Assembly (NCBI GenBank): GCA_012798065.1
Contig: JAAZNW010000094.1
Span: 1-37,633 of the forward strand
Origin: Chloroflexota bacterium
GTDB lineage: Bacteria; Chloroflexota; Anaerolineae; Anaerolineales; Anaerolineaceae
Reading direction: 5' to 3'
Length of the DNA: 37,633 nt
Part shown: positions 7,027 to 16,952 of the stretch, in pieces
Layout of the letters: each line of letters starts with the position of its first letter
Numbering within the stretch: the first letter of the stretch is position 1
Translations under genes and position numbers: made by a program
The notes under the pieces: generated by a model
The model's database searches: none
What the model saw: only the letters and a program-made list of their open reading frames with translations
What the model was told of the DNA's origin: nothing

Positions 7027-7695
7027 GTGAACAAACCGACTCACCTTTTTTTTCGTTTTTTACTCTTTTGCTGCGCATTGACCCTGACAGGCTGCGAGAA
7101 GATCGGCATTCACTTCCCTCAATCCGGGGCTGTACCCCCGGGCGGACTGTTATTCGAAGATGATTTTTCCCACCCGCCCAATGGCTGGGGATCGATGGAA
7201 ACGAGAGGAGGGGAGATTGAATTTATCTTTGATGGGATGATGATTTCCATCTTCCTCCCGAATTTTATGTACTGGTCTGTGAATGGAAAGGAATTCAGCG
7301 ATGTGAAAGTTAAGGTGGATGCTGTGCTGGCGGATGGTCCACAGGATGATACCTTTGGCGTCATCTGCCGCTTTCAGGACGACCGTAACTTTTACGGATT
7401 TGCCTTGAGCCATGACGGCTATTACGGGGTTTTTAAATATGTGGATGGGAAAATGAACGTGCTATCAAATGAAGGGAATCTGGGATTCAGCGAAGCCATC
7501 CGCACGGGTGGCGTGGTCAATCACCTGGAGGCGACCTGCGAGCGAAACGTTCTTCGTTTGAAAGCAAACGAAACACTTTTAACTGAGGTGATTGATGATC
7601 AGTTTGAATCCGGTAAGGTGGGGCTTTTCGCCGGCGCATATAGCGAGCCTGGCGTGAGGGTGTTCTTTGATAATTTCAAGATATTTCAACAATAA
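7027..7695 (+). CDS. lipoprotein with concanavalin-like (LamG/DUF1080-type) domain
   Basis: A 222-residue predicted lipoprotein. The signal peptide is short and hydrophobic and ends in the lipobox LTGC, so Cys22 should be lipidated by Lgt and exposed by LspA, both encoded in this window. The mature part has the pattern of a jelly-roll carbohydrate-binding or laminin-G-like domain: FEDDFSHPPNGWG, then DVKVKVDAVL, FGVICRFQDDRNFYGFALSHDGYYGVFK and the closing GKVGLFAGAY with FFDNFKIF. Such domains often bind sugars, but no catalytic residue can be assigned. The GTG start is supported by AGGAACAGG just upstream. mtaB begins two bases after its stop, so the two are probably co-transcribed. Ligand unknown. 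Confidence 0.78.
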   Translation: MNKPTHLFFRFLLFCCALTLTGCEKIGIHFPQSGAVPPGGLLFEDDFSHPPNGWGSMETRGGEIEFIFDGMMISIFLPNFMYWSVNGKEFSDVKVKVDAVLADGPQDDTFGVICRFQDDRNFYGFALSHDGYYGVFKYVDGKMNVLSNEGNLGFSEAIRTGGVVNHLEATCERNVLRLKANETLLTEVIDDQFESGKVGLFAGAYSEPGVRVFFDNFKIFQQ

Positions 7696-7697
7696 CG

Positions 7698-8969
7698 ATG
7701 AAAATATTTTTTGATACCGTCGGTTGCAGGCTCAACCAGGCGGAAATTGAGCACCTGGCGAGTGAATTCAGGTCGTCCGGGCACACGATCATCGACACCG
7801 CTGAGGGAGCGGACCTGGTTGTGGTAAACACATGCTAGGTCACTGCAGCCGCGGCTTCTGATTCCCGCCAAAAAGTAAGACAGGCACAGCATGCCGGCGC
7901 TTCGAACATCCTGGTAACCGGCTGCCTGGCCACCTTAGAACCGTCTGAGATTGCAAGGTTGCCCGGCGTCAAGCGGGTGGTTTCCAACCAGGCTAAGCCG
8001 CAAATAGCAGGGCTGGTTATGGGGCAATTGGCGGATTTTGACCTTGAACCGCTGGCCAGGCAGCCTTTGCCTGGAGCGCGCAAACGCACCCGGGCTTTCA
8101 TAAAAGTGCAGGATGGATGTAATAACCATTGCACTTTTTGCGTGACGCGCATCGCTCGCGGTGAAGCGCGCAGTATACCCAGAGATGAGGTATTACGCGA
8201 GGTCAACCACGCCCTCCATGGAGGTAGCCGGGAGGTGGTATTGACGGGTGTGCACCTGGGCTGGTGGGGCCGAGATTTACGCCATGAAGAAACCTTACCT
8301 GACCTTGTGGGCTACCTGTTGGAAAAAACGACGATAGAGCGGCTACGGTTGTCTTCAACTGAACCTTGGGACCTGGATGACCGCTTTTTTGATCTCTGGC
8401 AAGACCCGCGCATGTGCCGCCACCTGCATCTACCCTTGCAGTCAGGTTCAGCGGAAGTGCTCAAACGCATGGCAAGGCGCACTTCACTGGTTGAATATGC
8501 TCAACTTCTCGCGCATGCCAGGGAACGCATTCCGGGGCTGGCAGTGACAACGGATATCATTGTCGGGTTTCCGGGTGAGACGGAAGATGAGTTCAGCGAG
8601 AGCCTGGAATTTGTCAGGTCGATGAACTTTGCTGGCGGGCATGTTTTCAGATACTCCGCCAGACCGGGCACCGCCGCGGCCAGGCTCTCCGGCAGGGTTC
8701 ACGGCACCATCGCTAGAGAAAGAGGTCGGCTGATGCGGCTGGCGCTGGAAAAGTCAGCGCGCCATTACGCAGATGGACAGGTCGGTTGCGAGTTGAAGAC
8801 GTTGTGGGAAGCAGCCGAGCCGCAAGATGGAGGTTGGTTGGTGCGTGGATTGACGGATAATTACCTTCCGGTTACCGCGCAGGCGGGGTCAGACCGAAGT
8901 AACGAGATAGACTGGGTGAGAATAGATGGATATAAAAAAGGCAGCCTGTGTGCCACGATCACCGGGTAA
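7698..8969 (+). pseudogene. mtaB: mtaB, tRNA t6A methylthiotransferase, interrupted by an in-frame amber codon
   Basis: The reading frame from ATG 7698 encodes a 423-position MtaB-like enzyme (radical-SAM methylthiotransferase making ms2t6A37 in tRNA), but codon 47 is TAG (7836-7838). Before it is MKIFFDTVGCRLNQAE and VVVNTC; directly after it the same frame continues VTAAAASDSRQKV, so the stop replaces the single variable residue in the family motif NTCxVT. All other parts are intact: cluster cysteines 10, 46 and 76, the radical-SAM CNNHCTFC (Cys141, 145, 148), and a C-terminal TRAM-like region. Length is normal. Translation ending at codon 46 would yield a useless fragment; restart downstream (for example TTG 7959) would lack the N-terminal cluster domain. 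No ribosome binding site precedes ATG 7698, which lies two bases after the lipoprotein stop. It may be a recent nonsense mutation, an assembly error, or read-through. Confidence 0.85.
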
Positions 8970-8984
8970 CAGAAGAGGAACAGG

Positions 8985-10727
8985 ATGAACGACATCGCGA
9001 AACATCACTGGTGGCAAAAGGCGGTTTTTTACCAGATTTACCCGCGCAGTTTCGCGGATGGTAATGATGATGGCATAGGTGACTTTGCCGGAATGATATC
9101 CAGGCTGGATTACCTGCAGCAACTAGGCGTAGATGCCGTGTGGCTTTCACCTCATTACCCTTCGCCGTATGTGGATTGTGGCTACGATATCTCTGATTAC
9201 CAGGGAGTGGCGCCGGAATACGGCAAAATGCATGATTTCCGCCAGTTCCTGGATGGGCTGCACCAACTCGGCATGAAACTGGTGCTTGACCTGGTGCTGA
9301 ACCATACTTCTGATCAGCACCCCTGGTTTATCGAATCACGCTCCAACCGGCACAACCCCAAACGCGACTGGTATATCTGGAAGGACGGGAAAGAGGGCCA
9401 ACCGCCTACGAACTGGTACTCAACCTTTGGCGGTTCTGCCTGGGAGTATGATAAGCTGACCTCTGCGTATTATTACCATTACTTTTTCAAAGAACAGCCA
9501 GACCTGAACTGGCGTAACCCGGCTGTTAAAGAAGCCATGTTCAACGTGGCGCGTTTTTGGCTGGACATGGGGGTGGATGGTTTCAGGCTGGACGCGATTG
9601 GCACCATTTTTGAAGACGAAAATTACCCTCCCATCCCGGATGGGATGAGCCAGGAGGAGTTGTACCGCCTGGCCCGTAACACCCAGAACCCTGAAGCGGA
9701 TGAAAAAGTGCTGTCGTACTGGGCTCGCATGTACCGCTATCAATCTGATCAACCTGAAGTGCACCACCTGATGAAGGAACTTCGAATACTCCTGGATGAA
9801 TACGAGGACCGGGTGCTGATCGGGGAAACCGACGACCTTGCTTTTTACGGGGACGGAAACGATGAACTGCATCTCAATTTCAATTTTCCTTTGATGCGCA
9901 CCCAAAGGTTGACAGCAAAACATGTGAGGAAAAACCAACAAGAACGGCTGGCTGCCTTGCCAGTTTACGCCTGGCCATGCAATACTCTTGGAAACCATGA
10001 CTCTGCCCGCGTCTATTCTCGATATGGTGATGGAGAAAATAATCCCACTATTGCCAGGCTGAACCTGATGCTGCTGCTGACTTTGCGAGGAACGCCTTTC
10101 CTGTACAATGGAGAGGAGATTGGCATGTCTGACCTCATCATTGAAGACCCCGGCAGGTTTCGCGACCCGCTCAGCCTTTTATACGCTGCGCTGGATCAGA
10201 AAGTGATGGGCTCGGATAAAAAGACCGCAACGCTGACAGGCGCCATGATGGGCAGAGACCGCAACCGTACGCCCATGCAGTGGATGGACGCCCCTCATGG
10301 GGGTTTTTGCCCCGCTGATATAGAGCCCTGGCTGCCGGTGAACTCCGATTACCACACAGGAATAAATGTAAACGCGCAGGAAAAAGACCCGGGCTCATTG
10401 CTGAATTTCTACCGCGCCCTGATTAAGTTGCGAAAGCAGTCTCCAACGCTGCAAACCGGCGCATATGAAGAGATTGACGCGGGAAACGATGAAGTTCTGG
10501 TTTTTCGACGCTGGGATGGCTCAGGCAGTTATATTGTGGCATTAAACTTCAGCGATGCGCTGCAACGGGCGTATCTCCCTGATAACCCCGGCATGAATAT
10601 ATTTAGTAATATTCCCAATTCAGCGGGATGGGAAACTGGCGCTTTACCCTTGTTACCATATCAAGGCGTGATTTTTTCGCAAGAACGAACAGTTGATAAG
10701 CACTCAGGAAAAGGCTTTGGTAGATGA
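8985..10727 (+). CDS. GH13 family alpha-glucosidase / oligo-1,6-glucosidase type
   Basis: A 580-residue cytoplasmic (no signal peptide) glycoside hydrolase of family 13. The (beta/alpha)8 barrel motifs are all present: DLVLNHTSDQHPW (region I), GFRLDAIG with nucleophile Asp203, LIGETDD with acid/base Glu281, and GNHDSAR with Asp339. The QIYPRSFADGNDDGIGD opening and the calcium-like loop near it are typical of oligo-1,6-glucosidase, alpha-glucosidase and trehalose-6-phosphate hydrolase relatives. A short C-terminal beta domain follows residue ~480. The likely reaction is hydrolysis of alpha-linked glucose from short oligosaccharides; the exact linkage cannot be told. The ATG is preceded by AGAGGAACAGG, 15 bases after the mtaB stop. 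No sugar transporter or regulator is adjacent. Confidence 0.92.
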   Translation: MNDIAKHHWWQKAVFYQIYPRSFADGNDDGIGDFAGMISRLDYLQQLGVDAVWLSPHYPSPYVDCGYDISDYQGVAPEYGKMHDFRQFLDGLHQLGMKLVLDLVLNHTSDQHPWFIESRSNRHNPKRDWYIWKDGKEGQPPTNWYSTFGGSAWEYDKLTSAYYYHYFFKEQPDLNWRNPAVKEAMFNVARFWLDMGVDGFRLDAIGTIFEDENYPPIPDGMSQEELYRLARNTQNPEADEKVLSYWARMYRYQSDQPEVHHLMKELRILLDEYEDRVLIGETDDLAFYGDGNDELHLNFNFPLMRTQRLTAKHVRKNQQERLAALPVYAWPCNTLGNHDSARVYSRYGDGENNPTIARLNLMLLLTLRGTPFLYNGEEIGMSDLIIEDPGRFRDPLSLLYAALDQKVMGSDKKTATLTGAMMGRDRNRTPMQWMDAPHGGFCPADIEPWLPVNSDYHTGINVNAQEKDPGSLLNFYRALIKLRKQSPTLQTGAYEEIDAGNDEVLVFRRWDGSGSYIVALNFSDALQRAYLPDNPGMNIFSNIPNSAGWETGALPLLPYQGVIFSQERTVDKHSGKGFGR

Positions 10728-14425: not shown

Positions 14426-14785
14426 GTGAAACGGAAGTTCCGATTAACCCAGAAAAATGACTTCAAGCGGGTGCGCCACACAGGTCGATCGTATGCGGAC
14501 CCGCTTGCAGTCCTCGTTTGTGCAAAAGGATTGGCAGAAAATTCACGGGCAGGCATCATCGCGACACGGTCAGTAGGCGGAGCGGTTGAGCGCAACCGGG
14601 TGAAGCGGCAGTTACGGGCTATCATTGCACCATATCTCTCTGAGCTCAAAGACCCTATTGACTTTCTACTCATCGCGCGTGAAAGAACCTCACAAGTGCA
14701 ATTTCAGGAAATTCAAGCAGCAGTTGTTGAACTGCTGGGAAAAGCAGGATTGATTGGCTCAAACAATTATCGCCCAGGAAGATGA
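14426..14785 (+). CDS. rnpA: ribonuclease P protein component
   Basis: A 119-residue protein that partners the catalytic RNase P RNA in 5' maturation of pre-tRNAs. The N-terminal [19 protein letters not shown] and the RNR box [16 protein letters not shown] are diagnostic; the latter binds the RNA subunit. It begins with GTG 14426 and has a GGA ribosome binding site about seven bases upstream, 66 bases after rpmH. Its 3' end overlaps the proposed yidD start. The RNA subunit gene itself is not in this window. Confidence 0.95.
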
Positions 14786-15056
14786 ACACGTTCATGTGGC
14801 TGAGCCACGTCTGCGCGATCTTCCATTTCGATTGGTTAATATACCCCGCATGCCTCTGTTAGGGTTGATCAGGCTGTATCAATGGCTGGTTTCTCCAGCG
14901 TTGCCTGCCAATACCTGCCGTTTTTATCCTTCCTGTTCGCATTACGGCTATCAGGCGATTTATAAACATGGCGCCATTAAAGGTACGATCCTGGCTGTCT
15001 GGCGTGTTTTACGTTGTAATCCTTTTAATCCAGGTGGATTTGACCCGGTCCCGTGA
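14754..15056 (+). CDS. yidD: YidD, membrane protein insertion efficiency factor
   Basis: A small YidD protein thought to assist YidC in inserting membrane proteins. The conserved core lies at residues 33-100: [14 protein letters not shown], then the three-cysteine pattern in [13 protein letters not shown] and [15 protein letters not shown]. The start is uncertain. TTG 14754, with AGGA four bases upstream and a 32-base overlap with rnpA, yields 100 residues; ATG 14850 would give the more usual ~68 residues but has no ribosome binding site. The extra N-terminal stretch is polar and acidic, unlike the amphipathic helix usual in the family, so the shorter form remains possible. Family identity is secure and synteny with rnpA and yidC supports it. 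Confidence 0.9.
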
Positions 15057-16169: not shown

Positions 16170-16952
16170 ATGTGGGATACCATCATTATTGAACCATTTA
16201 TTAACTTGTTGTTGTGGATCTCCAAGCTGGTAGGTAACTTTGGCCTTGCCTTGATCCTCTTCACCATTCTGACCAGGATTGTGTTGTACCCTTTGACGGC
16301 CAAGCAAATTAAAAGCTCTGCCGCGATGCAGGAACTTCAAAAGGATAAACGGTACATCGAGATTCAAACCAAGTACAAGGGTGATAAGGAAAAGCTCGCC
16401 CAGGAACAGATGAAACTGTACCAGGAAATGAAGATCAACCCGATGGCGTCCTGTCTGCCTACATTGATCCAATTCCCCATTATCATCGGGCTGTACCAGG
16501 CGATGATCCAAACCATGGCCACTGGTCCGCTGGATCTGCTCAACCTGACAAGGCATATTTATCCGAAATTCCTTAGCATTGCAGAGGTGCTTCCCCTCAA
16601 CAGCAAATTCTTATGGATGGATATTGGAATGCCTGAGCGCCTGCACATTCCGGGGTTGAACTTTGGTATCCCTGTGCTGGCGATTGTTGTGGTCATTTCA
16701 ACCTACATCTCAACCAAAATCATGACCCCTCCCCAACAACCTGGCGCTGCTGACCAGGGGGCGATGATGTCCAAGATGATGAATCTGTACATGCCAGTGT
16801 TGATGGGCTGGCTGGCGTGGTCCTTACAATCTGGACTGGCGCTTTACTTTGTAGTGACGAACTTCGTCCAAATTGCCCAGTACGCGATTTCTGGCAAAGT
16901 ACATTGGGATAATGTGGTTTTCTGGAAAAAGAAACCAGAAGGAAAAAAGTAA
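16170..16952 (+). CDS. yidC: YidC/Oxa1 membrane protein insertase
   Basis: A 260-residue insertase of the short type, lacking the large periplasmic domain of E. coli YidC. It starts with an extracytoplasmic tail and the first core helix (LGNFGLALILFTILTRI-like region at ~25-40, where the buried catalytic Arg sits as TRIVLYPL), then the cytoplasmic coiled hairpin rich in Lys/Glu (residues ~45-95) and the hydrophobic helices PTLIQFPIIIGLYQAM, VLAIVVVISTYIS and SLQSGLALYFVVTNFVQIAQY. No lipobox is visible, unlike Bacillus SpoIIIJ. It inserts small membrane proteins alone or with Sec. Position between the lipoprotein and jag is the classic arrangement. Confidence 0.94.
   Translation: MWDTIIIEPFINLLLWISKLVGNFGLALILFTILTRIVLYPLTAKQIKSSAAMQELQKDKRYIEIQTKYKGDKEKLAQEQMKLYQEMKINPMASCLPTLIQFPIIIGLYQAMIQTMATGPLDLLNLTRHIYPKFLSIAEVLPLNSKFLWMDIGMPERLHIPGLNFGIPVLAIVVVISTYISTKIMTPPQQPGAADQGAMMSKMMNLYMPVLMGWLAWSLQSGLALYFVVTNFVQIAQYAISGKVHWDNVVFWKKKPEGKK

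Follow-up and report, generated by a model that had tools for sequence, protein, structure and literature searches.

The methylthiotransferase MtaB (also YqeV or TmtB; NCBIfam model TIGR01579) acts on t6A37 of tRNA. In Bacillus subtilis, ms2t6A is described on tRNA-Lys(UUU) (PMC10702137), and inactivation of mtaB there had, as of 2017, no identified phenotype (PMC5372745). A gene of this family lies in the window, i.e. the whole stretch of 37,633 nucleotides analysed here (contig JAAZNW010000094.1 of the Chloroflexota assembly GCA_012798065.1). It resembles MtaB in domain order and in its six cysteines, but its codon 47 is a stop. Probably, this stop arose by a real and recent nonsense substitution, in a genome (G000) that gave no other mtaB, although other readings of the same codon have to be weighed.

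The gene occupies positions 7698-8969 (+) as a 423-codon frame of the MiaB/RimO family, with an ATG start, a TAA end and a single internal stop. This TAG (7836..7838, +), evident in the sequence, in the ORF translation and in a genome-wide UPF0004 search, is the sole interruption of the frame and occupies the variable position of the NTCxVT motif, directly after C46 (N44-T45-C46-stop-V48-T49). All six cysteines at family positions, counted on the sequence and its translation, are present on the plus strand: C10 (7725-7727), C46 (7833-7835), C76 (7923-7925) and the radical-SAM cysteines C141, C145 and C148 (8118-8141). In the MtaB family, cysteines at these places are the ligands of two clusters. 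The 5′ piece (7698..7835, +), 46 codons from the ATG to the stop with C10 and C46, matches positions 1-45 of the 98 in Pfam UPF0004 (45.4 bits). The 3′ piece (7839..8969, +), 376 codons plus the TAA with the four other cysteines, has the MtaB model TIGR01579 as its best NCBIfam match (positions 44-415 of 416, 299.7 bits) and a Pfam Radical_SAM match of 84.3 bits, in which CxxxCxxC corresponds to C141, C145 and C148. It gives no Pfam match to TRAM at E<=0.001, yet the TIGR01579 alignment still runs to the penultimate model position. A UPF0004 match spanning the stop scores 80.5 bits, over the cut-off, with one TAG inside it. One family thus continues from the first half into the second, a pattern far from that of a chance frame. 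Taken separately, the two pieces score 299.7 and 34.5 bits with TIGR01579, whose curated cut-off is 357.05; the intact gene of a relative in the same genus (G005) reaches 365.1 bits, over that cut-off, and the name MtaB is thus borne out. The original prediction of an in-frame TAG within NTCxVT of an otherwise intact mtaB with six cysteines is therefore confirmed by the sequence, by UPF0004 and by TIGR01579. Past the stop, the first in-frame ATG, GTG or TTG is a TTG at codon 88 (7959..7961, +; ORF 7959-8969). It is located beyond C76, so that a protein re-initiated there would have none of the three N-terminal cysteines. Judged from its sequence, the reading frame predicts that no full-length active MtaB is made.

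The genome is a draft of 2,179,166 bases in 147 contigs, 91.02% complete with 4.6% contamination. It encodes three UPF0004 proteins, namely the window mtaB, RimO on C83 (439.2 bits, cut-off 356.95) and MiaB on C125 (391.1 bits, cut-off 355.3). The second mtaB for which a search had been proposed was thus not found in this 91.02% complete assembly by the UPF0004 search with NCBIfam scoring. Plasmids gave no DNA match, and an exact pattern search of viral contigs returned no species-mate. Named relatives in public genomes belong mostly to Anaerolineales and other Chloroflexota and show at most 58% identity over the 3′ part of mtaB. The upstream neighbour (7027..7695, +), lipoprotein-like by eye and without a Pfam match, has a tblastn match at all 14 same-genus mtaB loci, shorter in one of them (L021). 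Downstream lies an alpha-amylase family gene (8985..10727, +; Pfam Alpha-amylase, 435.3 bits), a relative of which adjoins mtaB at nine of the 14 loci (L005-L010, L012, L017 and L021). Since these neighbours are conserved, the window mtaB stands at its usual place and is not a moved copy. A scan of the window with Rfam gave nothing at gathering scores. Separately, the one relative among viral contigs, a 30 kb contig of a viral collection (L160, IMGVR_UViG_3300026075_000029) ends, at its positions 1-204, in an mtaB fragment with 83% identity over 46 residues, from which the codon-47 site is absent. Unrelated sequence follows the fragment directly, as in a chimera or an insertion into mtaB.

Across the family, 147 genomes including G000 were surveyed for mtaB matches at E<=1e-90. 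Such matches occur in 128 of them (G000 counted), 131 altogether, and only the window gene contains a true internal stop. The stop is private to G000, the orthologues being intact, with no internal stop in the 130 other matches (one of which, in G120, is a fragment lacking the codon-47 site). The mtaB of G031, flagged for an inner TAG, was set aside, the TAG being its terminal stop. Two genomes deserve separate mention. In G007, a same-genus genome 68% complete, no match was found at E<=1e-90. G116 was rejected as a case of mtaB loss: it also has no match at this threshold, yet it carries an mtaB-like gene split over contig ends (C1:1-435 and 3572967-3573737), perhaps a circle opened inside the gene. 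The codon table was built from 57 loci, of which 56 gave the gene (L210 was lost to the motif search). It leaves out two extra, divergent MtaB-like genes of the same-genus genome G011 (L048 on C152, L049 on C116), which are 42% identical to the window mtaB, lie on short contigs, carry Cys at the variable position of NTCxVT and may be paralogues or contamination.

In the 56 aligned rows, codon 47 specifies Ala in 41, Thr in nine and Ser in five, the remaining row being the TAG of the window. The proposed alignment of mtaB from related genomes thus gave a clear outcome, with a TAG conserved in none of the 55 other rows. Within the genus, 13 of the 14 relatives with an mtaB locus have an Ala codon (GCN) and one has Ser TCA. 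In the tree, G011 (GCA) is the closest row and G005, G006 and G009 (all GCG) come next, with starred support, the bootstrap being not fully settled. The ancestral codon was therefore likely Ala (GCG or GCA), and TAG is at least two changes away from it. For this reason a single change from Ser TCG to TAG, as had been suggested, is not the most economical history; TCG occurs in two of the 56 rows and in none within the genus. A TCG intermediate, making each step single, is possible. The same codons bear on a second reading, in which the 147-contig draft conceals a sense codon and a working MtaB, either by an error of assembly or consensus or by adopting the variant of a minority strain. This reading is considered unlikely, if worth serious attention. 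It is favoured by the draft state of the genome with the completeness and contamination given above, by the preservation of the remainder of mtaB and by the isolation of this stop among 131 matches. If the organism had one of the Ala codons seen in its closest relatives, however, two bases would have to be wrong, and a single wrong base would need an own codon such as the rare Ser TCG. Internal stops were also found in none of the 66 ABC_tran and 15 Radical_SAM domain matches in the genome (one of the latter is the domain of mtaB itself, located after its stop), which counts against an error but is weak evidence on the error rate.

The state of the gene limits the age of any loss. Among 88 near-invariant columns, defined by an identity of 97% or more across the other rows, the window mtaB departs at one, and each of 14 same-genus rows shows zero or one departure. 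Its tip branch in the tree (0.56) compares with 0.58 for its sister. Neutral drift was simulated as random substitutions without selection on 87 of these positions, insertions and deletions being ignored. Under these conditions a gene with no new stop and one departure at most is expected in 28% of cases at 0.01 changes per site, in 5% at 0.02 and in fewer than 1% at 0.03. Compared with this simulation the gene has decayed little, so that any loss of function would fall within about 2% neutral divergence per site, a figure that does not imply calendar time. The absence of decay is just as compatible with an error or with leaky decoding.

Other interrupted genes in the genome provide a point of comparison. 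An open-frame scan of the window and 20 further stretches (430,560 of 2,179,166 bases, about a fifth of the genome) yielded 14 in-frame stops, mtaB included, without a nearby restart and uncovered by another long ORF. For the other 13, separate pieces of up to 200 residues were compared with Pfam. In one of them a single family continues across the stop. This is a peroxiredoxin gene of C132 (L194, minus strand, 16742-16035), with a TGA at 16494-16496 and the reading FTFV-stop-PTE; it covers AhpC-TSA positions 1-40 before the stop and 42-123 after it. The TGA site presumably corresponds to the peroxidatic cysteine (FTFV-U-PTE). The genome also encodes a SelB match on C147 (338.6 bits, cut-off 242.25) and a separate tRNA-Sec with anticodon UCA (C62:18084-18179). 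Folding of 56 bases from the TGA, a fold test and not a SECIS search, gives z -1.95, with nine of 200 shuffles as good; Rfam matches in this region are weak only, far below gathering scores, and Rfam on four further stretches of the genome found one tRNA. Selenocysteine peroxiredoxins are a known family (PMC1794560), and the UGA in this gene is likely read as selenocysteine, on sequence grounds. Of the remaining stops, nine have at least one piece without a Pfam match, and three were dismissed as neighbouring genes with pieces in different families (L180 15828, a TAG; L185 2285; window 15054). At the last of these sites, a YidD gene (window 14754-15056, Pfam 102.1 bits) is closely followed, in frame, by a beta-propeller gene, which makes the stop a normal boundary between two genes. 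A codon-usage scan for broken genes listed 37 candidates and was abandoned as too weak, mtaB itself scoring about zero downstream of its stop (0.005) and going unlisted. Its six TAG rows, one of which is the only other TAG in the open-frame scan, comprise two with different families on either side and four with at least one unmatched piece. The other genes with a conserved in-frame TAG that might have accompanied mtaB were consequently not found among those examined, i.e. about a fifth of the genome by scan and the ABC_tran and Radical_SAM families. As the open-frame scan recovers the recoded-looking UGA of the peroxiredoxin, the approach can find such stops, and mtaB does not look like one.

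A third reading is read-through of the TAG. The means might be a suppressor or odd-shaped tRNA, the insertion of pyrrolysine or of selenocysteine at UAG, or leaky termination that yields small amounts of MtaB. Read-through gains from the preserved sequence downstream of the stop, from the apparent recoding of UGA in the same genome and from the Cys at the variable position in the two divergent copies of G011. It gains also from reports of widespread in-frame stops in bacterial genes whose dN/dS is below 1 (PMC7918605), of a UAG-decoding tRNA-Sec in some species and of allo-tRNAs with unusual shapes (both PMC10778597). The decoding machinery speaks against it. The proposed search for a suppressor tRNA-CUA or PylT found a CUA anticodon in none of the 42 tRNA genes (Rfam tRNA model, anticodons by ARAGORN; in a genome 91% complete, and odd-shaped tRNAs could escape both programs). 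The anticodon of the tRNA-Sec is UCA, and the best match to PylS, the pyrrolysyl-tRNA synthetase, scores 16.4 bits against a cut-off of 178.15. RF1 is complete (500.2 bits, cut-off 423.25), and TAG serves as a terminal stop: among 236 ATG-started ORFs of at least 250 amino acids in the 430,560 bases scanned, the final codon is TAG in 27, TAA in 114 and TGA in 95. No strong stem-loop follows the TAG: 57 bases from it give z +0.83 in the same fold test (again not a SECIS search), with 166 of 200 shuffles as good, as opposed to the negative value at the peroxiredoxin UGA. Rfam matches around the TAG are weak only, far below gathering scores. The codon is shared by no relative. Collectively, read-through of any kind appears very improbable. 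Where a nonsense mutation, an assembly error and a suppressor had been offered as three options, the suppressor has lost ground (no CUA tRNA, no PylS, an intact RF1) and the two others still stand. An elaborate variant is more doubtful again, to the point of being barely credible: the UAG, which adjoins a cysteine ligand of an iron-sulphur cluster in MtaB, would be read through at a low level, and a feedback loop would place this read-through under the control of MtaB itself. It would follow from the alteration of tRNA decoding by the 2-methylthio group on A37, and in the ms2i6A case the absence of this group is described as lowering amber suppression (PMC5372745).

A nonsense mutation and a sequence error together hold most of the probability, with the nonsense mutation clearly the more likely of the two. 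In the proposed mechanism of a nonsense substitution, RF1 would read UAG as a stop after 46 codons. The resulting short peptide would lack the radical-SAM domain and one of the three N-terminal cysteines, and no MtaB enzyme would be made. The tRNA-Lys(UUU), a gene for which is present in the genome (L054), would then stop at t6A37, the 2-methylthio group not being added. The original prediction that ms2t6A would disappear from the tRNAs reading ANN codons is too broad in this respect, given the B. subtilis case, and only a narrower form of it stands. We infer all three of the underlying points, namely that the TAG lies in the DNA of the organism rather than in the assembly alone, that UAG terminates translation there and that a tRNA is affected. 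Against a nonsense substitution stand the single draft assembly, in which a sequence error is possible, and the distance of two changes from the likely ancestral Ala codon. Three genomes of the same order (G039, G046 and G059; 97, 93 and 100% complete) give only 261-269 bits with the MtaB model, a range to be compared with the 268.1 bits of MiaB and 245.1 bits of RimO in G000. These model scores suggest that MtaB may be absent there too. Together with the lack of an identified phenotype in B. subtilis, these three genomes make a loss plausible and mild.

An in-frame stop in mtaB was not found in titles or the beginnings of abstracts among the literature matches listed. The literature on UAG and selenocysteine likewise gave no paper with the genus term among the matches listed. 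The nearest general comparison is with the in-frame stops of bacterial genes in Belinky et al. 2021 (PMC7918605). The mtaB stop is alike in being single, in the constraint on the rest of the gene and in its young age on the tree; it differs in occurring in one genome, whereas that study focused on stops common to at least two species to limit artefacts. With genes for selenoproteins and pyrrolysine proteins that contain a recoded stop, it shares a position inside an iron-sulphur enzyme, beside a cysteine ligand, but it differs in that no matching tRNA, synthetase, downstream stem-loop or codon conservation was found. As a nonsense allele, mtaB would add another case to the likely losses of tRNA modifications that a cell can do without. 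It serves mainly as a negative example to set against the recoded-looking UGA peroxiredoxin of the same genome, the contrast between the two being one of matching tRNA and of folding at the stop.
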